A stretch of DNA of 47,907 bases from Deltaproteobacteria bacterium. Its GTDB lineage: Bacteria; Desulfobacterota; Binatia; UBA12015. Shown in pieces: positions 32,533-44,831 of this stretch (its first letter is position 1; each line of letters starts with the position of its first letter). The notes beneath the pieces are model-generated. The model was not told the DNA's origin, did no database searches, and was given only the letters and a program-made list of their open reading frames with translations. The translations under genes were made by a program, and so were the position numbers. The stretch spans positions 1-47,907 of the forward strand of contig VGTG01000026.1 in NCBI GenBank assembly GCA_016874795.1, read 5' to 3'.

Positions 32533-33510
32533 TCAGTGGCCGGCGCCGCCGTGCACCGGCACGACGCCGACGCCAGGGCTCGGCTCGGGCACGTTCTTCG
32601 CCACCTCCTCCAGCTTCACCTCGTCGATCTGGAGGTTCGCCCGCTTCTTCAGGTCCTCGTAGTAGTCCTGCGTGCGGTCCTGGATCGTCTGGTGCCGGAG
32701 CGTCGCACGGATCTGCTCACGCACTTGATCGATCGGCTTCTGCTCGCCCTCGCGACGCTCCTCGAGCCGGATGACGTGGAATCCGTATTGTGTCTTGACG
32801 ACGTCGCTGAGATCACCCGGCTTCTTCAGGACGAACGCGGCCTCCTCGAACTCCGGCACCATCCGGCCATGACCGAAGAACCCGAGATCGCCGCCCTTGC
32901 GAGCGGAAGCGGTGTCGACGGAGCTCTCCTTCGCGAGCGCCTCGAAGCTCTTCGGATCCGCTACGAGCTTGTCGTGGATCTCCTTCGCCGTCTTTTCGTC
33001 GCGGACGAGAATGTGCCGCGCGCGGATCGTCGTCGTCGAGTAACGATCGCGATTCTTCTCGTAGTAGTCGGCGACTTCCTCGTCCGTCGGCGTCGGAGCA
33101 TCCTGGAGCTCGCGCACGAGCTTCTGCACGACGAGACGCTTCTCCATGTCCGCGATCTGACGCGCGATCTCGGGATCGTCCGCGAGACCACGTCGCTTCC
33201 CTTCCTCGAACAGAAGCTCGTTCAGCACGTGATTCTCGACGAAGCGCGCACGCCCTTCGCCGTTCATGAGCTGGCGCGAGCGGCGCGGCAGACGCTGTAG
33301 CTCGACCGTGAGCTCCTCGGCGGTCAAGGCCCCGCCCTCGTAGCGCGCGACGACCTCGCCGACGACCTCCTCTTCCTCGGCCGCCGCAGGCTCGGCAACC
33401 GCGGTCGCCACGGCCTGGGGACCCCCTTGCGGTGCGGGCGTGGATCCCTCACAACCGCCGAGAATCAGCCCGAGAACCAGTCCGATGCAAAGCGAGAGTC
33501 TACCGAGCAT
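32533..33510 (-). CDS. Parvulin-type peptidyl-prolyl isomerase lipoprotein
   Basis: 325 residues. A signal peptide ends in LILGGC, a lipobox with Cys20, so the protein is lipid-anchored. A Pro/Ala/Glu-rich linker and a SurA-like helical chaperone region (about 55-160) come before one parvulin (PpiC) domain (about 163-265: ARHILV, GGDLGFFGHGRMVPEFEEAA, YGFHVIRLEE). It probably helps fold outer-membrane or exported proteins. It is divergent from the AAA regulator gene over a 198-base gap and convergent with selB. Confidence 0.9.
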   Translation of the reverse strand: MLGRLSLCIGLVLGLILGGCEGSTPAPQGGPQAVATAVAEPAAAEEEEVVGEVVARYEGGALTAEELTVELQRLPRRSRQLMNGEGRARFVENHVLNELLFEEGKRRGLADDPEIARQIADMEKRLVVQKLVRELQDAPTPTDEEVADYYEKNRDRYSTTTIRARHILVRDEKTAKEIHDKLVADPKSFEALAKESSVDTASARKGGDLGFFGHGRMVPEFEEAAFVLKKPGDLSDVVKTQYGFHVIRLEERREGEQKPIDQVREQIRATLRHQTIQDRTQDYYEDLKKRANLQIDEVKLEEVAKNVPEPSPGVGVVPVHGGAGH

Positions 33511-33708
33511 GACCCTCTGCTTAGCCGAAACCGGAGCTTCTCCGAAAGGTCGAGAAGGCCTTGGCAGACGCTCGCGGAGTCGGCCCCGGCTCGCCTTGCG
33601 CGCTGCTCTCGTGTCGGCCAACCTCTCCCCTGGCGGCGTGAGACCGGTCCAGCCGTCTCGCTCAAACCAAGTACTGCGCGTACGTCCCGGTGAACGCCGA
33701 GGGCAAAC

Positions 33709-35049
33709 GTGGTGACGAACACGTCGACCCCGAAGATGCAGTTTCCGAGCGAAGAGAGGTTCCTGCAGTATTGCGTCAGCAAGCGCAGAACGTACCTGCG
33801 CCAGCTCTTCGAGCGTCGTAGCCTGCGCGGCTTCTACGACCTCTGGCAAGGCGAGATGACTCTCGCGGGAAGTCGCTTCGAGATCGCGGGCATTCCGCGG
33901 CAGCGTAGCCGCGCGCTCGGTCGCGAATTGCGCTGGCTCCTGCTGCAGGATCTGCACCGCCTCGCACGCAACGTCGTCCCCGAGTTCCCGCCGGCGCCGC
34001 CCACCGTCATCGAGCGCCTTCCCGGCGCGCTGCATCAGGTGCGCACCGCGCGGTCGATGCTGATCGCGGGCGAGGAAGGCGTCGGCAAAGAGCAGCTCGC
34101 GGTCCTGCTGCACGTTCTCTCGGGGCGTCCCGGCGCGCTCGTTCGTGTTTCCGCGGCCGAGCTCGGCAACGCCAGCGGGACGCCGACGCGCCAGCTCATG
34201 CCGGAGCGCGGCTCGGTTTACATCGACCTCGTCGAGAATCTCGAGCCGCACGCACAAGAGGATCTTCTCGCGTTCCTGAACGGCGAAGCGCGACGACGCG
34301 ATCTTCTCTTCTTCGCCGCGACGCGCGCCGAGCCGCGCGAGCTCGTTTCGCGCCACGGGCTGCGCCGCGACCTCTTCGTGCGCGTGAGCCAGACGGAGGT
34401 CCGCCTGCCGCCGCTCGAGCGTGGTGCGGAAGAAGTTCCGGACTTCGTCGGGGACATCGTCTACGACCTCGTTCGCATCTCGCCGGAGGAGCTCGCCACG
34501 CTGCGCGACGAAGCGGAGACGCTCGCGACGGCCTGGCGCAACGGACCAAGCATCCCCGTACCGCCGAGCTACGACTTCTTCTCGGAAGCGCTCTCCTACG
34601 TCCTGTGGGAGGAGCGACGCGAGCGTGCCGCGAACGTCCTCGATCACGAGTTCGTCGCAAGCATCACGAACGCTTCGGTCGCGGGGAATTTCCGCGGTCT
34701 CTGCCACCGCGTCGCGGCGGCTCTCGCGCAACGCGCGATCACCGACCCGCGGCGACGAAGCGCCGGAGCGGCTCGTGTCGGCGAGCGAGCGGGCCTCGCG
34801 CGGTCCGCCGTCTCCGGGCCTCTCGAGCGAGAGCCCGAGAGCGACGCGTCGGTCGAAGTTCCGACGCATCTCCGCCGCGACGAGCTTCTCGCCGTTTACT
34901 ATCGCGCTCTCCTCGAAGAGGAATCCGGCGATCTGCAGCGCGTCGCCGCGCGTGCCGGTCTCGCGTCGCACGAGCTTCGCGGCGAGCTCGAGCGTCTCGG
35001 TATGCAAGACGAAGCCGACGCGGACGCGCCACCGCCCACACGAAGCTAG
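33709..35049 (+). CDS. Degenerate sigma54-activator-like AAA protein with Fis-type HTH
   Basis: 446 residues. Residues 1-100 are an unfamiliar basic region. A P-loop-like GEEGVGKEQ (121-129) matches the GESGTGKE form of sigma54 activators, and RGSVYIDLVENLE follows where Walker B would be. The GAFTGA loop that contacts sigma54 is absent and the domain is shortened. Residues about 395-435 form a Fis-like helix-turn-helix (VAARAGLASHELRGELERLGM). The protein could bind DNA without activating sigma54 promoters. The start is uncertain: GTG 33709, GTG 33712 (better spaced from GAGGG) or ATG 33736. Confidence 0.7.
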   Translation: MVTNTSTPKMQFPSEERFLQYCVSKRRTYLRQLFERRSLRGFYDLWQGEMTLAGSRFEIAGIPRQRSRALGRELRWLLLQDLHRLARNVVPEFPPAPPTVIERLPGALHQVRTARSMLIAGEEGVGKEQLAVLLHVLSGRPGALVRVSAAELGNASGTPTRQLMPERGSVYIDLVENLEPHAQEDLLAFLNGEARRRDLLFFAATRAEPRELVSRHGLRRDLFVRVSQTEVRLPPLERGAEEVPDFVGDIVYDLVRISPEELATLRDEAETLATAWRNGPSIPVPPSYDFFSEALSYVLWEERRERAANVLDHEFVASITNASVAGNFRGLCHRVAAALAQRAITDPRRRSAGAARVGERAGLARSAVSGPLEREPESDASVEVPTHLRRDELLAVYYRALLEEESGDLQRVAARAGLASHELRGELERLGMQDEADADAPPPTRS

Positions 35050-35060
35050 GTGTGAACCCT

Positions 35061-35137
35061 CCGAGCGATGCGAGCGCGGGGAGTGAGGCGCAGCTTAGGC
35101 TTTGCCGGGTGGAGCGAGGGGGCGCGTGCCCCCTCGT
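35061..35137 (-). repeat. Dispersed palindromic repeat, copy A
   Basis: Read on the minus strand, this 77-base segment aligns almost end to end with 43481-43554 on the plus strand. The shared core is a CGAGGGGGC-type hairpin with loop ACGC, then a CCAC spacer, then GGCAAAGCC and a GCGCTCGC-rich tail. It lies directly after the stop of the AAA regulator gene. It is a REP-like intergenic element; nothing in it codes for protein. Confidence 0.75.
35115..35136. terminator. Hairpin within repeat copy A
   Basis: A perfect 9-bp stem (35115-35123 with 35128-35136) with loop GCGT and no clear U-tract. It could end transcription of the AAA regulator gene or protect the transcript end. Confidence 0.45.
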
Positions 35138-35304
35138 CAAACCAGCCCCTGTTGCGCGCCGGCGGCGCATCAGACAGGATCGCGCCGTTCCGGATGTGGT
35201 TCGACTGGTCCAACGAGAATGGGAATGAATCGACGGGGCCGAAAGAGCGGCAACCCGGTCGTTCGACGCTGGCGGCATCCCCGCCGCACATGAGGGGGAT
35301 CGAG

Positions 35305-35568
35305 ATGGACGATGTCTTGCGCCAAGCGGAAGCGCTTCTCCGCTTCTCCGGCGAGGTCGAGAACCGCATGGCCGAGAGCGGCCTCGGCGGCGTGACCGGA
35401 GTGATCGAGCGCTACGTGCAGCTTCGGCAGGCGCTGGACCGCCTGAGCCAGCGTGAGCTCGATTGGGCGAAGGGCGAAGTCGATCGTCTCATCGCGACGC
35501 TCACCGCGGTCGCGGACCAGCTCGAGCAGCTCCGCGCGATCAAGCTCGCGATCGTCGATCCCAACTGA
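35305..35568 (+). CDS. Small coiled-coil protein, unknown function
   Basis: 87 residues, almost entirely helical with heptad-like spacing of Leu, Val and Ile and no cysteines. The ATG at 35305 has GAGGGGGA five bases upstream, the best ribosome site in the area. The in-frame ATG at 35290 has none. About 255 bases separate it from the gene before and contain repeat copy A. No family is recognised; small scaffold or regulatory partner proteins look like this. It converges with the VanZ-like gene, with 14 bases between stops. Confidence 0.65.
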   Translation: MDDVLRQAEALLRFSGEVENRMAESGLGGVTGVIERYVQLRQALDRLSQRELDWAKGEVDRLIATLTAVADQLEQLRAIKLAIVDPN

Positions 35569-35582
35569 AATCGTGCGGACGT

Positions 35583-36056
35583 CTATCGCGGGCCGGCGCA
35601 AGCACGCAAGCGACCTCTCGGCGGCCACACGAAGAGCAGCACGGCCAGCGCCAGTGCTGCTCCCGCGGCGTCGAAGAGGACGTCGCCGACGGCGGCGGAG
35701 CGCGACGGAACGAAGATCTGATGGACCTCGTCGATCACCGCCCACGCGACGCTGAGAAGCAGCGCGATCGAGGCAGCCTTGCGCGCGGGACGCCGGCCGT
35801 CGTACAACGCGCGGAAGAGGAGCAGCGCGAGCACCCCGTACTCCGTCATGTGCGCGAGCTTCCGGATGCCTGCGTGCGCGAGCTGGATCTGGCCCTGCCC
35901 GAGCCACGGCAGGACGTCCTCGAGCAAAGGCACGAGGATCCAGCCCGTGCCCGAGCCGCTGAAGAGATCCGTCGAGAAGGTCCAGATCAGGCCGGCCCAG
36001 GCGACGACGGGAAGCCAGCGCGAGAGCGTTCCGCTGGCGCCGCGAGACGCGCGCAA
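35583..36056 (-). CDS. VanZ-like membrane protein
   Basis: 157 residues with four membrane segments. The conserved features are RKLAHMTEYGVLALLLFRAL and DEVHQIFVPSRSAAVGDVLFDAAGA, the classical VanZ-family pattern. VanZ gives low-level teicoplanin resistance in enterococci, but most family members have no known role. The TTG start at 36056 is the only reasonable one; a CTG at the end of the VKOR-DsbA gene is an alternative. It lies 11 bases downstream of that gene and is probably co-transcribed with it. Confidence 0.8.
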   Translation of the reverse strand: MRASRGASGTLSRWLPVVAWAGLIWTFSTDLFSGSGTGWILVPLLEDVLPWLGQGQIQLAHAGIRKLAHMTEYGVLALLLFRALYDGRRPARKAASIALLLSVAWAVIDEVHQIFVPSRSAAVGDVLFDAAGAALALAVLLFVWPPRGRLRACAGPR

Positions 36057-36067
36057 ACGAGGGCGGC

Positions 36068-37318
36068 TCAGCGAGCCGCCGTCGCGGGGCCGGAGTCGCG
36101 CGCGAGCCGCTCGCGCTCGATCGCGAACGCGTAGCGATACTGCTCGGGGCGCGAGAAGCCGCCGTCGACGCGACGCCCGTTGATGAAGAACGTCGGCGTC
36201 GACTGCACGCCTGCGTCCTGTCCGGCCTTTACGTCCTTCGCGACAGCTGCGGCGGCCTCCGGCGAGTCGAGGCACTTCTCGAACTGCGCCGTGTCGAGGC
36301 CGACGCGCGACGCGTAGCCCTTCAGGTCGTCGCGCGAGAGCGCCGTCTGGTTCTCGAACAGCAGGAGGTTGAACGCCGATCCCTTGCCGCTCTGCACGGC
36401 GCACACGGAAGCGGTCGCGGCGGTACACGCGTCCGCGTGGTTGCGCGTCTCGATCGCCGCGTTGCAGTCCGCGTTCAGCGGGAAGTTCCGGTGGATCACC
36501 TCGACGTCGGCGCCGTCGGTCGCGAGAACCTCCGTCAGGTCGAGAAACGCCCTGCGACAGTAGGGACACTGGAAGTCGGAGAACTCGACCACGGTGATCG
36601 CGGCGCCACCTGCGGGGTGGCTCTCGTCGATCGGAGGATCGACGATCGGTCTGGAGACGTAGAAGGCATAGAAGCGCGGATCCTTCTGCTTGATGCCCTC
36701 GACCGACATCGGTCCGCCCGTCGTCTCGTCGGACGCCTGGACGACGCCGAGCACCACGACGACCGCGAGGGTCGCCCCCACCGCCGCCGCGAGCGGTCCG
36801 GGACGAAAGGGCGACGAGCTCTCTCGCGACACCTCGACGAGAAGCGCGAGCGCCGCGCCGAAGAGGCCGATCCCGACGGCATCCATCGAGAGGCAGATCG
36901 GGCAGGCGACGCCGATCACGAACGCCGAGACGAAGAAGAAGTACAGCGAGATCCCGAAGATGCCGAGCGTCAAACCGAAGAGCGCGGTCGCGAGCGGCAG
37001 CCGGCGCGCCGGGGGAGCGCGCATCACCAGGACCGCGAGCACCGCCGTCGCGAGATACGACAAGATCCCCCACGCCCCGACCGGGATGCCGAGGAACTCC
37101 GAGTACGCGCTGCCCAGCACGACGTCGCAGGACAGCCCCTCGGACACGTCGCAAAAACTAGTGTAGTCGCCCTGGCTTGCAGCCAGTCGATCATGGATAA
37201 AGAGCACCACCGAGCCGAGGATCAGGCCCACCATGGAGAGGACGAGGAGCAGGACCGGGAGGGATCCGATTCGAGGCGCCGCGGGCGAAGAAATCGAGCT
37301 GCGACGGGCGCTTGGCAT
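36068..37318 (-). CDS. VKOR-DsbA fusion, disulfide-forming system in one chain
   Basis: 416 residues. The N-terminal half is a VKOR domain with about four or five helices, loop cysteines Cys56 and Cys64 and the quinone-side CPIC at 139-142. A membrane helix (about 175-195) leads to a periplasmic DsbA-like thioredoxin domain with CPYC at 251-254 and the cis-Pro segment STPTFFING. Quinone oxidises VKOR, which oxidises the attached DsbA, which forms disulfides in exported proteins, so DsbB is unnecessary. Further cysteines in the DsbA part (FPLNADCN and HADACTAATASVC) may form structural bonds. The ATG overlaps the start of the divergent glycosyltransferase gene by 2 bases. Confidence 0.92.
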   Translation of the reverse strand: MPSARRSSISSPAAPRIGSLPVLLLVLSMVGLILGSVVLFIHDRLAASQGDYTSFCDVSEGLSCDVVLGSAYSEFLGIPVGAWGILSYLATAVLAVLVMRAPPARRLPLATALFGLTLGIFGISLYFFFVSAFVIGVACPICLSMDAVGIGLFGAALALLVEVSRESSSPFRPGPLAAAVGATLAVVVVLGVVQASDETTGGPMSVEGIKQKDPRFYAFYVSRPIVDPPIDESHPAGGAAITVVEFSDFQCPYCRRAFLDLTEVLATDGADVEVIHRNFPLNADCNAAIETRNHADACTAATASVCAVQSGKGSAFNLLLFENQTALSRDDLKGYASRVGLDTAQFEKCLDSPEAAAAVAKDVKAGQDAGVQSTPTFFINGRRVDGGFSRPEQYRYAFAIERERLARDSGPATAAR

Positions 37319-40300
37319 GATTGGCGGGGATCCTAGCCACGCGAGGTTTGCAATTCAACGCAGCCCTCGCGCTCGTTCGACGTGGAAGCGCGTCTTCTCA
37401 TTCGCATTCCTCGCGTGCTCGCTCGTGCTCGCACTCGGAGCTCCCGCGAGCGCGCGTGACCTCGTCATCAACGGCAGCTTCACCGCGGGAGCGGAGAGTC
37501 AGCCGAACGGCTGGCGGCCCGACCTCTGGAGCGCCGCGGCCGGCACCACCTTCGAGTGGAAGAAGGACGACGTCGCCCCGGGCGTCGTGATCGTTCGGAA
37601 CCCGAACCCGAACGACGCGCGCTGGATCCAGGAAGTCCCGGTGCAGCCCGGACAGTGGTATCGGCTCTCGGGCTTCGTGCGCGCGGTCGGAGTTTCCGAC
37701 GGGGGCGCCGGCGCGAACCTGTCGATCCTGCGTGGCTTCGATCGGACGGAAGCGTTCCATGGCGACACCGAGTGGACTCCCGTCTCGATGTGGTTCAAGG
37801 CGAACCCGGACGAGACGAAGGTCACCGTCGCCTGCCGTCTCGGGGGCTACGCGGAGACGTCGTCGGGCGAGGTGTGGTGCGCGGGCATTCGCCTCGAAGC
37901 GCAGGCGGCGCCGCCCGTCAATGCCAACTTCGTCTACGGACCGATCGAGGAGTCGACGGCGACGGTCGGGCTTCCGACCGTTCTCGGGCTGATCTTCCTG
38001 CTCGTCTTCGGGCTCGGCCATTACGGCAGCGTCGGCGCGAGCGTCCCGAGGAGAGAGAAGCTCGCGCTCGCCGGAATCCTGATCGTGGTGCTCGCCGCAA
38101 AGATCGCGGCGGCCCCCTGGTTCCAGTACCGCGTCGACGTCGGGACGTACTCCGCCTGGGCGATCAAGCTCGCGGGCGAAGGTCCCGCTCGCTTCTACGC
38201 TCCGGGTTACTTCGCCGACTATCCGCCCGGCTACATGTACGTGCTCTGGGGAATCGGCGTCCTGAGCAACGCCGTCGGGATCCCGTTCGGCTCGTCGGGG
38301 TTCCTGATCCTCTTGAAGCTACCCGCACTGCTCGCGGACGCGGCCGTCGCGTGGCTGACGTTCGCGCGCCTCCGCAGCGACGACAAGCGTCTTGCGTGGA
38401 CGGCGGCGCTCGCCTTCGCGCTCAACCCCGCGCTCGTATTGAATTCGGCGGTCTGGGGACAGACCGATTCCGTCCTCGGGCTTCTCGTCCTCCTCGCGTT
38501 CCTCGCGCAAGGCGAGCGACGCTTCGAGCTCGCGTGGGTGTTCGCGGCGCTCGCAGTCCTGACGAAGCCGCAAGCGCTCCTCCTCGTCCCGCTGCTCGCC
38601 TTCTGGCCGCGCGGCTGGTGGAAGACCGGCCGTCCCATCTCGAGCCTCCTCGCCGCTTTGGCGACGGTCTTCGTCGTCGCCGATCCGTTCCGGGGCGAGC
38701 GTCCGTGGCGCTGGCTCGTCGACCTCTACTTCGGGACGACGGGCTACTACGCCGAGACGTCGGTCAACGCGATGAACCTCGCCGCGCTCCTCTTCGGGAT
38801 GCGGCACAACGACTCCGAGATCACGCTCGGGCTCTCCGCGAACAACTGGGGCTTCCTGATCGGTCTCGCGATCGGGCTCGCCTTCTTCGTCGCCTACCTG
38901 CGGCGACGAGATCGCGTGCTCTACACGAACCTCTTCGCAGCGGCGACGCTCACCTCGTTCACATGCTTGACGCGCATGCACGAGCGCTATCTCTACCCTT
39001 TCTTCGTGTTCGCGGGGCTGCTCGCGATCACGGGGCCGCTCGGCGCGATCTACTGGACGCTCTCGGCGCTGTTCCTCGCGAACCAGCTCGTCGTCTACCT
39101 CTATCAGGAGAGCGCGACCTCGGGCCCGACGTGGCTCTGGATGACCGTCGCGGTCCTCACGACCGCGTGCCTCTTCGCCTGGCTCGCGCTCACCTGGAGA
39201 ATCGTCCAGGGCAAGGTCGAGGTGCCGGGAGCGCGCGCGCTCGAGCGCGACGACTCGGCGTGGCTCCGCTGGCTCGCTCTCGACCGATCGGGCCCGAGCC
39301 TCGCTCCGCCGACTCCGGAGGGGGCGACCGCGGATGCCTCGGGCGCGCCGCTCACCTCATGGACGAGGCACGAGGCCGTCTACCTCCTCGCGCTCCTGCT
39401 CCTCTCGCTCGGCCTGCGGCTCTACGCGATCGACAAGCCGACGGACCTCGTCTTCGACGAGGTCTACTTCGTCGAGCAGGGCCGGAACTACCTCACGGGC
39501 ACCGACTTCCTCGATCCCCACCCGCCGTTCGCGAAGCTGATGATCGGACTCGGCATCGGCGCGGTCGGCGACACGCCGTTCGGCTGGCGCATCATGAACG
39601 CGATCGTCGGCACGATCCTGGTCGGCCTGATGTACGTGCTCGGGCGCGAGCTCTTCCAGCGCCGTCTCGCCGCCGGGCTCGCGGCACTCTTCGTCGCGAT
39701 CGACGGGCTCTGTCTCGTCGACTCGCGCATCGCCGTGATCGACATCCACTACGTGACGTGGGCGATCGGCGCGTACACCCTCACGATCCGGTTGATCCGA
39801 AAACGGGACTACCAGAACGTGCCGCTCCTTCTCGGGATCGGCGCCGTGCTCGGCGTCTCCGTCGGATCGAAGCTCTACATTCCATTCTTCAGCTTCATTC
39901 TCGTCCTCGGTGCGCTCGCCGTGACGGGCTGGAACCAGGCGCGCAGAATGAAGCAGCCGGTCGTGCGCTTTCTCGCGAAGCCGATCCTCGTCGTGGGCTG
40001 GACGGCGTTCGGCGTGTACGTCCTCACCTACGCGCCGCACTTCCTCTGGGGCTGGTGGCACTCGCCGATCGACCTCGTCAATTACATCTTCGTCGAGGTT
40101 CCGAACTATCAGGCGGCGGTCGCCGACGCGCAGCACCCGTACTCGTCGAAGTGGTGGACGTGGCCGCTTCTGCTGCGGCCCGTCTGGTACTACTGGAAGG
40201 ACCCCGGACCGACGCCCGGCATGGTCGTCGGTATCTGGGGCTCGGGAAACCTGGCGATCTGGTGGGCCGCGCTCGCCGCGCTTGCGTTCGTCGCCTGGCA

Positions 40301-40784
40301 CGCGATCCGCGAGCGACGGATGGCTCTCGCGTTCGTCGCCGCGGGCTGGCTGATCCACCTGATGCCGTGGGTCGGAATCGGCCGGACGCTGTTCCTCTAC
40401 CACTACCTTCCCTCGCTGCTGTTCGCGTTCCTCGCCCTCGCATGGCTTCTCGACCGCCTTTGGAACGGCGAGGGAACGAAGGTCGAGCGAGGCCTGATGG
40501 GCGCAGCGGTGCTGGGAAGCCTGTTCCCGGTCGTCTGGTACACGCTCCGCGAGTGGTCGATCCCGTTCATCGCGATCCTGATCATCTACGAGGGCTGCAC
40601 GTACTCGCCCTACGTCGAGCCGAAGCGGCTCGGGCGCGTCGTCGTCGCCGGCTACTGCGTCGCCATCCTCGCCATTTCCTGGTACTTCCTGCCGATCTGG
40701 CTCGGACTGCCGATGCCCAAGAACGACTGGCAGGCACGCATGTGGTTCTCCGATCTGAACTACAAGTTCCTAAACTGGATATGA
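37317..40784 (+). CDS. Lectin-like domain, Gpi18-type GT-C and PMT-type mannosyltransferase in one chain
   Basis: 1155 residues in one uninterrupted frame. Signal peptide about 24-46. Carbohydrate-binding-module-like beta domain about 48-200. Membrane glycosyltransferase 1 about 215-640, Gpi18-like, with YRVDVGTYSAWA, YPPGYMYVLW and RMHERYLYP. A linker of about 80 residues. Glycosyltransferase 2 about 700-1155 of the PMT (GT39) family with VFDEVYFVEQG and DPHPPFAKLM, then HPYSSKWWTWPLLLRPVWYY. PMTs transfer mannose from polyprenyl-phosphate mannose to Ser/Thr of exported proteins. The protein probably acts on the periplasmic side, with the lectin domain holding glycans or acceptors. No internal start or stop hints at two genes. 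Confidence 0.85.
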   Translation: MIGGDPSHARFAIQRSPRARSTWKRVFSFAFLACSLVLALGAPASARDLVINGSFTAGAESQPNGWRPDLWSAAAGTTFEWKKDDVAPGVVIVRNPNPNDARWIQEVPVQPGQWYRLSGFVRAVGVSDGGAGANLSILRGFDRTEAFHGDTEWTPVSMWFKANPDETKVTVACRLGGYAETSSGEVWCAGIRLEAQAAPPVNANFVYGPIEESTATVGLPTVLGLIFLLVFGLGHYGSVGASVPRREKLALAGILIVVLAAKIAAAPWFQYRVDVGTYSAWAIKLAGEGPARFYAPGYFADYPPGYMYVLWGIGVLSNAVGIPFGSSGFLILLKLPALLADAAVAWLTFARLRSDDKRLAWTAALAFALNPALVLNSAVWGQTDSVLGLLVLLAFLAQGERRFELAWVFAALAVLTKPQALLLVPLLAFWPRGWWKTGRPISSLLAALATVFVVADPFRGERPWRWLVDLYFGTTGYYAETSVNAMNLAALLFGMRHNDSEITLGLSANNWGFLIGLAIGLAFFVAYLRRRDRVLYTNLFAAATLTSFTCLTRMHERYLYPFFVFAGLLAITGPLGAIYWTLSALFLANQLVVYLYQESATSGPTWLWMTVAVLTTACLFAWLALTWRIVQGKVEVPGARALERDDSAWLRWLALDRSGPSLAPPTPEGATADASGAPLTSWTRHEAVYLLALLLLSLGLRLYAIDKPTDLVFDEVYFVEQGRNYLTGTDFLDPHPPFAKLMIGLGIGAVGDTPFGWRIMNAIVGTILVGLMYVLGRELFQRRLAAGLAALFVAIDGLCLVDSRIAVIDIHYVTWAIGAYTLTIRLIRKRDYQNVPLLLGIGAVLGVSVGSKLYIPFFSFILVLGALAVTGWNQARRMKQPVVRFLAKPILVVGWTAFGVYVLTYAPHFLWGWWHSPIDLVNYIFVEVPNYQAAVADAQHPYSSKWWTWPLLLRPVWYYWKDPGPTPGMVVGIWGSGNLAIWWAALAALAFVAWHAIRERRMALAFVAAGWLIHLMPWVGIGRTLFLYHYLPSLLFAFLALAWLLDRLWNGEGTKVERGLMGAAVLGSLFPVVWYTLREWSIPFIAILIIYEGCTYSPYVEPKRLGRVVVAGYCVAILAISWYFLPIWLGLPMPKNDWQARMWFSDLNYKFLNWI
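37330..37358 (-). promoter_or_regulatory. Candidate promoter of the VKOR-DsbA gene inside the glycosyltransferase gene
   Basis: On the minus strand TTGAAT (37353-37358) and TAGGAT (37330-37335) are separated by exactly 17 bases, matching sigma70 spacing with 4/6 fits in each box. The start of transcription would fall only a few bases before the ATG at 37318, giving a nearly leaderless message. No Shine-Dalgarno sequence is visible there, consistent with this. Confidence 0.45.
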
Positions 40785-41479
40785 GGGACGCTCGACGGAT
40801 GACGGCGGGCCTCGGCGCCTGCCTCCTGCTGCTCCTCGTTTTCGCCGGAGTAGCGCACGCTTCGCGCGAGCTCGTGCAGAACCCGCTTCTCGGCAACGGC
40901 CAGAACGGTCAGCCGCTCCACTGGAAAGCCGAAGGCTTCAAGATGGAGACCGAGGTCACTCGCTTCGGGTGGAGTGTCGACACGAAGGGCATCGGCGTCC
41001 TCGAGATCGACAGCCCGGGCGGGAACGATGCGCGCTGGGTGCAGACCGTTCCGGTCTCGCCCGACACCTGGTACCGCGTCACCGGCTGGATCCGCACGGA
41101 GAACGTCGGGGCGACGCAGATGGGCGTCCACCTCTCGGTGATGGGCACCTTCCACAACTCGCGCGACCTGCGCGGAACGCTCGGCTGGCAGCCCGTCGGG
41201 TTCTGGGTGAAGACGGACGGGCTCACGACGAAGCTCCAGATCGCGTGTCGACTGGGCGGCTACAGCTCGCTCAACACGGGGAAGGGCTGGTGCACGGGGA
41301 TCTCCGTCGTCGCCGCGGGCACGCCGGCTCCGGACCGCTTCGTCTACGGCAACACCGCGGACCCGCAAGCGTCGAGCGGCGCCTTCGGCGTGCAGGCGAT
41401 CGCGGTGCTCGTCGTGGTCGGCATCGCGCTCCTGATCTGGCGCTACGTCCTGCCACCCTCGACGCACATTCCCGAATGA
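40781..41479 (+). CDS. Membrane-anchored lectin-like domain protein
   Basis: 232 residues. Signal peptide to about 27 (LLLLLVFAGVAHAS), a beta domain about 28-195 and a C-terminal membrane helix about 203-225 with a short cytosolic tail. The domain is clearly homologous to the N-terminal domain of the preceding fusion protein: both have NDARW, VPV, WYR, ACRLGGY and a WC near the end. It is thus a duplicated, free-standing version of the putative carbohydrate-binding module. The ATG overlaps the preceding stop by ATGA, so the two proteins are coupled and may work as partners. Confidence 0.8.
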   Translation: MRDARRMTAGLGACLLLLLVFAGVAHASRELVQNPLLGNGQNGQPLHWKAEGFKMETEVTRFGWSVDTKGIGVLEIDSPGGNDARWVQTVPVSPDTWYRVTGWIRTENVGATQMGVHLSVMGTFHNSRDLRGTLGWQPVGFWVKTDGLTTKLQIACRLGGYSSLNTGKGWCTGISVVAAGTPAPDRFVYGNTADPQASSGAFGVQAIAVLVVVGIALLIWRYVLPPSTHIPE

Positions 41480-41486
41480 GGAGCGG

Positions 41487-43115
41487 ATGAGGCTCGCCAC
41501 CGTCTTGGTCTTGACGGTGATCGCGGGGTGGCTGCGCTTCACGTCGCTCGACTTCGGGCTCCCCGACAAGTTCCGGCCCGACGAGGAGTACATGGTCTCG
41601 CGGGCGGTCGGGTTCTCGGAGGACCTGAATCCCCACTTCACCGTGTACCCGGCGGCACAGATGTACGTGCACCATGCGACGCTGCGCTTGATCGCCGCTC
41701 TCGAGGGGCAAAAGGGCGACTTCCGCGGCGCGTTCCTTCCGGGTGGGTTCGCGCGGGCCCATCTCGTCGGACGTCAGCTCGCCGCGGCGTTCGGGACGGC
41801 GACGATTCCCGCGATCTATTGGGCTGCACTCCCCGCGTACGGCTCGACCGCCGCGCTCGCCAGCGCCACCGTGATGACGTTCGCGACCATCCACGTGCGC
41901 GAGTCGAAGTACTCGACGACGGACACCGCGGCGGTCTTCTGGCTCACGCTCGCGATCGGGATGATGCTGCGCGTGATCCTGCGCGGCGGCCTCGGGCCCT
42001 CGCTCCTCGCCGGCGTCTTCACCGGGATCGCGATGGCGACGAAGTATCCGACGGGCGCCGTGCTCGCGGGTCAAGCGCTCGCGCACCTCGGCGCGCGCTG
42101 GCGCGAGGGGCGGAGCCTCTGGCGCTCGTTCCGCGACATCCGGCCGTGGATCACTCTGGTCACGACGATCGTCGTGTTCGTCTGCTGCACGCCCTACTTC
42201 CTTCTCGACTGGGCGCAGACGCTGAACGACTTCGCGTATCAGCGCGGATTCCTCGAGCAGGGCGTCGGCAACACCCGGGCGGGTTGGGGCTGGTCCTGGC
42301 TTCTCGAGAAGGCGTTGCCGGACGGGCTCGGTCCGGAGCTCGCGACGGTCGTGCTCGTGGCCGTCGCCTGGTGCGTGATCCGGCCGCGGATCGGCACGTG
42401 GTCGCTTCTCGCGTTCGTCGCGGTGGCGACGCTCGGCATGACCTCGAGCCGCTACGCGTTCTATCGCTACGTCGTCATTCCTCTTCCGGCGCTCGTCCTC
42501 TTCGTCGGGATCCTCGCGAGCGACGTGAAGCGCTGGCTCGCGCGGCGCGTTCCGGATCCGTGGCCGGCGGTCGTCCTCTCGGCGGCGCTTCTCGTACTGC
42601 TCGTCCCTTCCGCGATCCGCGACTACAAGCTCGGCCGCATCTTCGCGCGCCGCGACACGCGCACGATCGCGCGCGAGTGGATCCAGGAGCACGTCCCGCC
42701 GGGCTCCGCGATTGCGATGACGAACCACGCGACGCCCTACGGGAAGCCGCAGCTCACCGCAGGCGGGTACCGCATCGAGCCGTTCCAGGACGTCGCGACG
42801 CTGCGACGGGGCCAGATCCGCTGGGTTCTCTCCGACTCGGACGTCCTGCCCTTCTACTCGCCGGCGCCGACGGATGCGCAGCTCCGCGAGCTCGAGTCGT
42901 CCGCGGACCTGCGCTTCGATCTCGATCCCGTCAAGCCGGGAACGCCGAAGCCCGTGTTCGACGAAGCGGACGCGTTCTACATCCCGATCCGGCACACCTC
43001 GAGCATGAAACGACCGGGGCCGCGCATCCGGATCTGGGAGCTGCGCGACGGCCCCGCCGCGCCTGCCGAGCCGCCGCCGAGCACGAAGTTGCGCCGGCGC
43101 CGCGTGCAGGACTAA
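41487..43115 (+). CDS. GT-C membrane glycosyltransferase
   Basis: 542 residues with about ten membrane helices in the first 400 residues and a soluble C-terminal part of about 140 residues. The first loop carries FRPDEEYMVSRAVGF with the Asp-Glu pair typical of GT39/GT83-like enzymes, and ESKYSTTDTAAVFW follows. The donor is probably a polyprenyl-phosphate sugar. GAGGAG precedes the ATG, 7 bases after the lectin gene. It is the third gene of the putative O-mannosylation operon. Its acceptor is unknown. Confidence 0.82.
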   Translation: MRLATVLVLTVIAGWLRFTSLDFGLPDKFRPDEEYMVSRAVGFSEDLNPHFTVYPAAQMYVHHATLRLIAALEGQKGDFRGAFLPGGFARAHLVGRQLAAAFGTATIPAIYWAALPAYGSTAALASATVMTFATIHVRESKYSTTDTAAVFWLTLAIGMMLRVILRGGLGPSLLAGVFTGIAMATKYPTGAVLAGQALAHLGARWREGRSLWRSFRDIRPWITLVTTIVVFVCCTPYFLLDWAQTLNDFAYQRGFLEQGVGNTRAGWGWSWLLEKALPDGLGPELATVVLVAVAWCVIRPRIGTWSLLAFVAVATLGMTSSRYAFYRYVVIPLPALVLFVGILASDVKRWLARRVPDPWPAVVLSAALLVLLVPSAIRDYKLGRIFARRDTRTIAREWIQEHVPPGSAIAMTNHATPYGKPQLTAGGYRIEPFQDVATLRRGQIRWVLSDSDVLPFYSPAPTDAQLRELESSADLRFDLDPVKPGTPKPVFDEADAFYIPIRHTSSMKRPGPRIRIWELRDGPAAPAEPPPSTKLRRRRVQD

Positions 43116-43124
43116 CGTCGGCAC

Positions 43125-43475
43125 ATGGCCAAGGTCATGATCTATCACAACCCGGTGTGCTCGAAGTCGCGCGGCGCCGTCGAGATCCTCACCGAGCGCG
43201 GCGTCGCGCACGACGTCGTCGAGTACCTGAAGATGCCGCTCGACCGAGCGACGCTGGAGCACTTCCTCGACCTCCTCCCCGGCGAGCCGTCGGCGCTCGT
43301 TCGCAAGGACAAGCGCTTCGCCGAGCTCGGGCTCGACGCGAAGGACTACCAGACGCGCAAGCAGGTGATCGAGGTGCTGCTCGCGCACCCCGAGCTGATG
43401 GAGCGGCCGGTCGTTCTGAACGGCAATCGCGCCGTGATCGCGCGCCCTTCGGAGAAGGTGCTCGAGATCCTCTGA
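43125..43475 (+). CDS. arsC: ArsC-family protein, probable arsenate reductase
   Basis: 116 residues with the glutaredoxin-linked ArsC fold. The active cysteine is in YHNPVCSKSR (Cys12), and the anion-binding arginine is in MERPVVL (Arg93). Such enzymes reduce arsenate to arsenite using glutathione and glutaredoxin; some members are YffB-like or Spx-like, so the function is probable rather than certain. No ars efflux or regulator gene is near, and it lies 9 bases after the glycosyltransferase gene, probably in its transcript. Confidence 0.85.
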   Translation: MAKVMIYHNPVCSKSRGAVEILTERGVAHDVVEYLKMPLDRATLEHFLDLLPGEPSALVRKDKRFAELGLDAKDYQTRKQVIEVLLAHPELMERPVVLNGNRAVIARPSEKVLEIL

Positions 43476-43480
43476 TGTAT

Positions 43481-43554
43481 ACGAGGGGCACGCGCCCCTC
43501 GCCCCACGCGGCAAAGCCGCGCGGGGCCCCACTCCTGCGCTCGCTCGCGCTCGG
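43481..43554 (+). repeat. Dispersed palindromic repeat, copy B
   Basis: This is the plus-strand counterpart of 35061-35137, 74 bases, beginning 5 bases after the arsC stop. The GAGGGGC/GCCCCTC hairpin with loop ACGC, the GGCAAAGCC core and the GCGCTCGC tail are shared. The two copies lie 8.4 kb apart in opposite orientation, each just behind a gene. Confidence 0.75.
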
Positions 43555-43573
43555 CCGCGCGCTACGCGCGCGG
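43482..43573. terminator. Cluster of three hairpins between convergent genes
   Basis: Hairpin 1 is 43482-43489 with 43494-43501 (8 bp, loop ACGC). Hairpin 2 is 43502-43512 with 43516-43526 (11 bp with one mismatch, loop AAA). Hairpin 3 is 43555-43561 with 43567-43573. They fill the gap between arsC and the convergent lipoprotein gene and probably end transcription from both sides. Confidence 0.5.
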
Positions 43574-43589
43574 AGGTCTCGCGTCACTC

Positions 43590-44831
43590 CTACCGCAAGG
43601 TGCGGAGCTGCGACTCGACGCGGCGCCGCCTTGGCTCGTGCATCGCCGCCGCTTCGGACGTCCGCTCGAGATAGAGCTGGTACAGCGAGCGCGCGAGAGC
43701 GTGCGGATCCTTCGCGCGCTCGGCGAGCGGGCGGATCGAAGCGGGACGCTCGAGGATCTTCCGGGTGCTCTCGAAGGCGGCCTGGTCGTCCGCGTTCGAC
43801 GTCTCGAGATCCGCGAGCGCGTCGGCGAGATCGACGAGCGGCGCCGCTTCGTACGACTCGAGCGCCACGGCGACCGCGAGCGAAGGCGCGCCCTTCGCCG
43901 CCTGTCCGCTCTCGAACTCGAGACGCCCGAGAAGCCGCCAGGGCTTCTCGTCGCACGCATCCGCAGCGATCGCATCGTGCAGGAACCTCTCCGCCTCCTC
44001 CTTGTGGAGTGCGTCGTTGGCGCGGCGCGCCGCCTTCGCGAGCCGCGCGACCGTGTCGCGCTGCCAGCGTCGGAGCTCGCCCGGACCCGACGCGAGCACG
44101 CTCTCGTCGAGAGGACGGGCGAGACAGCGGAAGCCGTCGACCTCGTCCCAGCCCGTCGTCGCGAACCGCATCACGCGCCCGGTGCGCGCGCCCGGCACGA
44201 GATCCGGAGGAGGGAACGTCGCTTCCCACGACTCGACGAGCTCGCCCGCAATCACGTCGTAGCGCGACGGCGCCGAGAGCTTCGGCGCGCAAAGGAAGCG
44301 AGGCCGCTTCTCGGCGAGAAGCCAGCCGCACGCGGTCGTTGCACCCGGTCCCGTCATCACGGCGAGGACGAGGGGCTCGCCCGCCTCGGTGCGAAGATCG
44401 AGCGCGCCCTCGAGCTTCGTGACGCGCGCGTCGAAGTCGTGACGGCCGACGAGCACGGCCGGCTCGTGGCCGACGTCGATCAGAAGCGCGGTCGCCCTGC
44501 TCCTGGTCTCGGGCGAAGCGCCGCCCGCGAGCAGTCCGACGACGTAGGGTGAATCGTCGGAGACCGCCTTCAGGGGAGAGTCGCCGCCGCCCGGCGGCAG
44601 GGCCGTGCGCGCCCGAGCGATGCGCGTCGCGGGGCTGCGCGGCGGCGTGACGGGTTGCGGCTTCTTCTCGGCTTCCGCAGGAGCAGGCTCCGGCATCGCC
44701 GGCGCCGCGGCGGCCTCCTTCATCTTCTCGAGCTGGTGCGAAAGCTCCGGGTCGACCGGAGCCGAGGCCCGCGCCGCACAACCGAGAGCGACCGCGAGCA
44801 CGAGCAGCGACGGGAGCCGGGCACGAAGCAC
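43590..44831 (-). CDS. Lipoprotein of unknown function
   Basis: 413 residues. A short signal peptide ends in AVALGC, a lipobox with Cys18. A Pro/Ala/Glu/Lys-rich linker runs to about residue 90. The centre (about 90-250) is a mixed alpha/beta region with no motif I recognise. The C-terminal half (about 255-400) is helical and may contain tetratricopeptide-like repeats, as suggested by evenly spaced Ala/Leu helices (KEEAERFLHDAIAADACDEK, WRLLGRLEFESGQ). Membrane tethering is certain enough; the role is not. It lies 66 bases downstream of the FecR-type gene, in the same orientation. Confidence 0.75.
   Translation of the reverse strand: MLRARLPSLLVLAVALGCAARASAPVDPELSHQLEKMKEAAAAPAMPEPAPAEAEKKPQPVTPPRSPATRIARARTALPPGGGDSPLKAVSDDSPYVVGLLAGGASPETRSRATALLIDVGHEPAVLVGRHDFDARVTKLEGALDLRTEAGEPLVLAVMTGPGATTACGWLLAEKRPRFLCAPKLSAPSRYDVIAGELVESWEATFPPPDLVPGARTGRVMRFATTGWDEVDGFRCLARPLDESVLASGPGELRRWQRDTVARLAKAARRANDALHKEEAERFLHDAIAADACDEKPWRLLGRLEFESGQAAKGAPSLAVAVALESYEAAPLVDLADALADLETSNADDQAAFESTRKILERPASIRPLAERAKDPHALARSLYQLYLERTSEAAAMHEPRRRRVESQLRTLR

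Follow-up and report, generated by a model that had tools for sequence, protein, structure and literature searches.

A three-hairpin, REP-like repeat family behind genes of a Binatia bacterium: probably a miniature mobile element, showing no tie to the enzyme typical of REPs

Why should two stretches of palindromic DNA, alike along nearly their whole length, stand in opposite orientation behind two separate genes of the same contig? The question is raised by a window of 47,907 nucleotides – positions 1 to 47,907 of contig VGTG01000026.1 (assembly GCA_016874795.1), from an uncultured deltaproteobacterium assigned to the Binatia – in which an original prediction had picked out an alignable pair at 35061–35137 (minus strand) and 43481–43554 (plus strand), each placed after a stop codon, and had proposed a family resembling the repetitive extragenic palindromic (REP) sequences. 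The positions, strands and stop codons proved correct. The answer that we favour is that the two copies probably belong to a non-autonomous, REP-like family of miniature mobile elements, whose core of about 96 bp consists of three abutting hairpins (H1, H2 and H3).

Local alignment of 35051–35140 (minus) with 43476–43560 (plus) gives a score of 72, whereas 2,000 pairs of dinucleotide-preserving shuffles reach a mean of 18.4 (standard deviation 3.2) and a maximum of 37. The features by which the pair had been recognised – an identical ACGC loop (in the forms CGAGGGGC-ACGC-GCCCCTCG and CGAGGGGGC-ACGC-GCCCCCTCG), a GGCAAAGCC core and a GCGCTCGC tail – are all present in both copies. A window with 69% G+C might yield chance likenesses of GC-rich sequence, but this explanation is refuted by the shuffled scores and by the further copies in the genome, and its probability is practically nil. 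Searched with a 73-bp query taken from the 43481 copy, the genome (6.27 Mb in 360 contigs) yields 45 DNA matches, of which 43 fall below E 1e-8, and a covariance model built on 26 copies finds at least 83 matches at E <= 0.001, a lower bound as 150 of 22,792 candidates were scored. A profile search of 437 kb around copies and around the Y1 transposase genes discussed below returned 89 stretches; in this number a copy on contig C36 with another element inside it counts as two halves, a few stretches are partial, and matches at contig ends with shared flanks (C54, C164, C279) may represent one locus assembled more than once. Against the Rfam families, region 34500–44000 of the window gave one match up to E 1 (E 0.71), unrelated, located elsewhere and far below the cut-off.

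The predicted length of about 75 bp was too short, since the 43481 copy extends through a third hairpin to about 43576; the 35061 copy stops before the second half of H3. Complete copies, of about 96 bp, run through H1 (for example GAGAGGGGC-GCC-GCCCCTCTC, or the first of the ACGC forms given above), H2 (CTCCACGCGGC-AAA-GCCGCGCGGAG and variants) and an interrupted H3, which reaches from CTCC to GGAG and contains a CGCTCGC repeat and a CCGCGCGC/GCGCGCGG palindrome. The fold of the copy at 43481–43576 has a z-score of -3.74 (0 of 200 shuffles as good) and that of its other strand -3.47 (2 of 200), while the copy at 35061–35142 gives -2.06 (7 of 200) and -2.39 (2 of 200) on its two strands. A perfect H1 stem of at least 6 bp, in 21 distinct sequences, is found in 65 of 79 complete copies; the H1 stem table takes in 73 of 84 matches beginning at model position 7 or less, with 11 lacking a perfect 6-bp stem. 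Directly 5′ of H1, visual inspection shows in several copies, and in more than one genus, a truncated second H1-like arm with approximately GGGYTNTCGCC after it (L196, L198 and L199 in genome G006; C164:2024, C82:16962 and C194:3293 in G000, the source genome).

An automatic consensus fold of the 26 copies is poor and shows no pair changed on both sides, because the H1 loops are shifted between subfamilies; structure was analysed through folds of individual copies and an alignment of H2. For this alignment, 44 of 78 windows (35 distinct sequences) were kept, each forming 9 or more of the 11 pairs, and a TAAGCT-type change, present in 31 of the 79 complete copies, was left out. The H2 covariation score is 0.407 against 0.103 after shuffling, a value reached by none of 500 shuffles. 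Pairing, at 89.6% of 385 cells against 72.5% (again 0 of 500 as high), is inflated because the sequences had been selected for their pairs; with the partner slid by 1–3 columns, only 35–54% of cells pair. Changes on both sides occur in 8 of the 11 pairs (shuffled mean 5.6; 8 reached by 19 of 500), and copies of another genus show additional variants in which both arms agree, for instance CCCCGTCAAGC-AAA-GCTTGACGGGG. H2 has thus been conserved through compensatory change. Wobble pairs give a mixed picture of which strand the hairpins prefer.

Most copies stand shortly after a stop codon, in gaps that separate convergent genes or genes on the same strand, in keeping with the REP-like character first proposed. 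By our own gene calls, 35 of the 89 matches are in tandem contexts, 31 in convergent and 2 in divergent ones, 10 overlap a called gene end and 11 lie at contig edges; the 35061 copy is scored as divergent because the gene caller chose an antisense open reading frame (ORF) before it. Counted as gene pairs, those with an element number 38 tandem, 32 convergent and 2 divergent, as against 201, 36 and 54 without (P 4e-10). Within convergent pairs, for which 30 of the 31 matches were used, the placement is directional: the H1 end has a median distance of 4 bp from the stop codon and usually lies 3–7 bp behind it, the H3 end a median of 17.5 bp, and the range from -3 to 10 bp around the stop holds 25 of 30 H1 ends but 10 of 30 H3 ends (P 2e-4). 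In tandem pairs, the element is oriented opposite to the genes in 23 cases and with them in 12 (P 0.09). Where copies overlap a called gene end (C18:37523-37627, C267:4702-4798, C126:5582-5597 and others), the final amino acids of the protein may be encoded by the element.

That the copies are insertions, added at junctions that are empty in relatives, is shown by two lines of evidence. Tandem gaps have a median of 148 bp with one copy (31 pairs) and 34 bp without (201 pairs), a difference of 114 bp, and convergent gaps 117 bp (27 pairs) against 26.5 bp (36 pairs), a difference of 90.5 bp, so that a gap with a single copy exceeds one without by roughly the length of an element. In addition, two junctions are filled here and empty elsewhere; they were selected visually among 12 candidate copies because their gene pairs looked likely to be conserved. 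The DUF1800–DUF1501 junction measures 142 bp in this genome and 15–40 bp in eight relative loci (L155–L162; L163–L168 were left out), of which several are paralogues of 49–57% identity and the best four reach 63–66%. The CoxS–CoxL junction carries an element here and is unfilled in G001, G003, G005, G006 and G010, the G002 locus stopping short of it. Across the 36 relative loci L141–L176, a profile search found no element match at E <= 10. One locus of G006 did not lend itself to an empty-site comparison, since numerous genes resemble those on its flanks.

The distribution of the family among genomes is patchy. The covariance model finds matches in 6 of 39 genomes, the source genome included, and a 95-nt DNA query at E <= 0.001 finds at least 62 in G006, 52 in G010, 39 in G032, 28 in G025, 11 in G005, 5 in G009, 2 each in G004 and G020 and 1 each in G007 and G013; neither search gave a match in the congeners G001–G003. 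At E <= 1e-8, 7 of 148 genomes of the class are positive, again with the source genome included, and they belong to two families. The genomes counted as bearers of the element are G000, G005, G006, G010, G025, G032 and G091. As at most 40 candidates per genome entered the 95-nt DNA query and 6 the survey of the 148, these counts are lower bounds and the absences are not exhaustive. Identity with copies of other genera reaches 93%. No vector was found: one 95-nt query had no blastn match (E 1e-3) among plasmids and phages, nor one exact 20-mer among viral contigs. Two of the element-rich genomes, G006 and G010, also hold head-to-tail arrays of the element (L187, L188, L189 and L192, with periods of about 92, 120–121, 123 and 125–126 bp), as well as short forms that break off within the opening portion of H3; L196–L201 are short forms whose 3′ part is a different one.

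How such a family might spread can be outlined. A trans-acting enzyme might recognise the hairpins, probably while the DNA is single-stranded, and move or copy the element; this step, which we put forward tentatively, is suggested by the structural constraint together with the lack of a consistent target duplication. Insertions would then persist at places where no gene or promoter is disrupted, and the hairpins would be transcribed into mRNA 3′ ends or operon junctions, where they may slow 3′ exonucleases. Several observations weigh against this mobile reading. No mobiliser of the element was found, and the evidence for recent movement lies mostly between genera or species, so that current movement is not demonstrated. 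Signs of target duplication are weak and vary with flank length: in the 79 of 89 matches used for the flank tests, the mean longest direct match is 4.59 against 4.32 after permutation (21 of 2,000 as high), with wider flanks 5.68 against 4.97 (0 of 2,000, a weak excess to which tandem copies contribute) and with narrower ones 3.78 against 3.63 (128 of 2,000). Terminal inverted repeats amount to a weak tendency towards TCGAAC and GTTCGA at the two ends, and the inflated H2 pairing noted above belongs here as well.

The original prediction had considered mobilisation by a REP-associated tyrosine transposase (RAYT). A true REP family, moved by the RAYT/Y1 transposases of the source genome as in a REPtron, would agree with the REP-like distribution around genes and with the 15 Y1_Tnp matches of this genome, 13 of them above the Pfam cut-off, among them a near-canonical gene at 71 bits (the NCBI REP_Tyr_transpos cut-off being 80) and a divergent multi-copy family at 35 bits, whose members are 65–85% identical in the 60 closest listed pairs. 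Genomes G025 and G032, like the source genome G000, possess both Y1 genes and elements, and the final 16 nt of the 5′ flank contain GTAG in 7 of 79 copies where 2.0 are expected. Yet none of the 15 Y1 genes is flanked by the element, and within about 3 kb on each side (less at contig ends) a copy is found around just one of them, some 2.8 kb away. In the element-bearing genomes G005, G006 and G010, no match to PF01797 reaches E <= 0.001; G006 and G010 contain no relative of the multi-copy Y1 family and G005 one weak match of 45 residues, whereas G014 combines 18 Y1 matches with zero element matches, so that copy number does not track Y1 genes. Both kinds of Y1 gene, moreover, have flanking sequences of their own: the multi-copy family (among L121–L135), in which RDHAH replaces the usual HUH surroundings, shares the upstream sequence GAACATCGCCCGATTCAA, and the near-canonical gene at C66:15174 is enclosed, by eye, by a 17-bp inverted repeat distinct from the three-hairpin element. 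Nor are GTAG or CGTC tags conserved at the element ends: GTAG is found in 0 of 79 3′ flanks, its 5′ excess may be due to TAG stop codons, and CGTC stands in 7 of 79 5′ flanks (12.5 expected) and 8 of 79 3′ flanks. RAYT mobilisation is not supported by these observations, and we regard it as quite unlikely.

The remaining alternatives concern the placement behind stop codons and the ends of the element. A transcript-end or terminator structure, held by selection and not mobile, was also raised at the outset, and its positional part stands, as hairpins just behind stops and the preference for convergent genes fit it; so do the structure kept by compensation and the fold z-scores of the complete copy (-3.7 and -3.5 on its two strands). 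But relatives lack the element at these sites, gaps with a copy exceed those without by the length of one element, copies also sit within conserved same-strand pairs, and none was seen in the three congeners. Neither window copy has a U-tract terminator – a simple scan of 34500–44500 for intrinsic terminators finds 2 patterns in 10 kb (4.2 expected), none at either copy and one about 30 bp from the 35061 copy – and selection without mobility is decidedly unlikely. Less probable again is a miniature inverted-repeat transposable element (MITE) mobilised through its terminal inverted repeats by a classical transposase: the tendency at the ends and a 5-bp ACTGA repeat, seen by eye on the flanks of the DUF1800–DUF1501 insertion, would suit it, but of 79 copies only 4 have TCGAAC in the 5′ flank and 1 has GTTCGA in the 3′ flank (some of the motif could lie within the aligned stretch), and target duplication is not consistent. 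A further reading has insertion aimed at translation stop codons: an enzyme that recognises the hairpins, different both from RAYTs and from classical terminal-inverted-repeat transposases, would put the H1 end 3–7 bp behind the stop. We hold this to be unlikely; if true, every insertion would give a gene a structured 3′ cap at little harm. The mobile, three-hairpin family thus remains the explanation that we consider probable.

Features of the two window copies and of the genes that they follow
Feature	Position	Strand	Evidence or remark
Complete element copy, three abutting hairpins	43481..43576	+	takes up most of the 114-bp stop-to-stop gap of two convergent genes
Hairpin H1, paired part, loop ACGC	43483..43500	+	folding
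Hairpin H2, GGC-AAA-GCC core	43501..43527	+	folding, covariation
Interrupted hairpin H3, CTCC ... GGAG; contains GCGCTCGC tail and CCGCGCGC/GCGCGCGG palindrome	43532..43575	+	folding
Second copy, without second half of H3	35061..35142	-	alignment, folding
H1 of second copy, 9-bp stem, loop ACGC	35115..35136	-	
Stop codon TGA of ArsC-like ORF 43125-43475 (+)	43473..43475	+	5 bp ahead of element
Stop codon TAG of sigma-54-activator-like ORF 33709-35049 (+)	35047..35049	+	11 bp from H3 end of second copy

The names of the two ORFs in the table follow their matches, to sigma-54-activator domains and to ArsC, respectively. Next to the second copy, at 32533–35049, both strands carry long overlapping ORFs, with a rotamase match in the minus-strand ORF and the sigma-54-activator match in the plus-strand ORF, in separate parts; the region probably contains two divergent genes, and a plus-strand gene ending at 35049 fits because the Pfam domains of the two strands occupy different parts of it. 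The PMT–ArsC gene order of the window is also found in G005, G006 and G010.

The source genome harbours, separately, a MITE-like element of about 186 bp (L089:5780-5965, that is C36:23979-24164), with inverted ends TAGCCTGCATTTCTCACCAGATC and an apparent TA target duplication. One copy sits within the three-hairpin copy on C36, other complete copies lie at C38:32863, C17:12055, C15:29558 and C66:12591, single ends occur on C267, C285, C67, C53, C250 and C176, and several contigs break in it.

Among known systems, ERIC, bacterial interspersed mosaic elements (BIMEs) and NEMIS are composite palindromic repeats of about 100 bp, with several stems, intergenic and non-coding, found in other host groups; our element is alike in these respects, a likeness drawn from description. 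MITEs are short, non-coding and moved in trans. The element shares with them its shortness, its lack of coding capacity, perhaps movement in trans, and its filled and empty sites at two junctions, but neither terminal inverted repeats nor target duplications are clear in it. According to the passages of PMC3733652 that treat REPs, these lie mainly between unidirectional and convergent ORFs near 3′ ends, some overlapping gene ends. The GTAG and CGTC superfamilies resemble the present element in being palindromic, intergenic and present in many copies, and in this placement relative to genes. For CGTC-REPs those passages give no known transposase, as is the case for the three-hairpin element, and they also describe long inverted repeats flanking RAYTs (TIRtrons), which the Y1 gene at C66:15174 recalls by its own inverted repeat, other than the three-hairpin element. 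The differences are as plain: about 96 bp and three hairpins compared with the 20–40 bp and single palindrome given there for REPs, no conserved GTAG or CGTC tag, and, unlike REPtrons, no Y1 gene flanked by the element and a RAYT match in some but not all element-bearing genomes. A search of the open-access literature brought up no work on repeats of this kind among relatives of the source organism, which is not proof of absence.

The three-hairpin repeat is therefore a new family, which resembles REPs without their usual signature and without a link to their usual enzyme. It carries a warning that a RAYT gene in a genome does not by itself explain the REP-like repeats of that genome. Many short palindromic repeats of bacteria have no known mobiliser; here, with element-rich genomes, congeners in which none was seen, conserved junctions both filled and empty, and directional placement, comparing genomes with and without the element offers a way to look for it.

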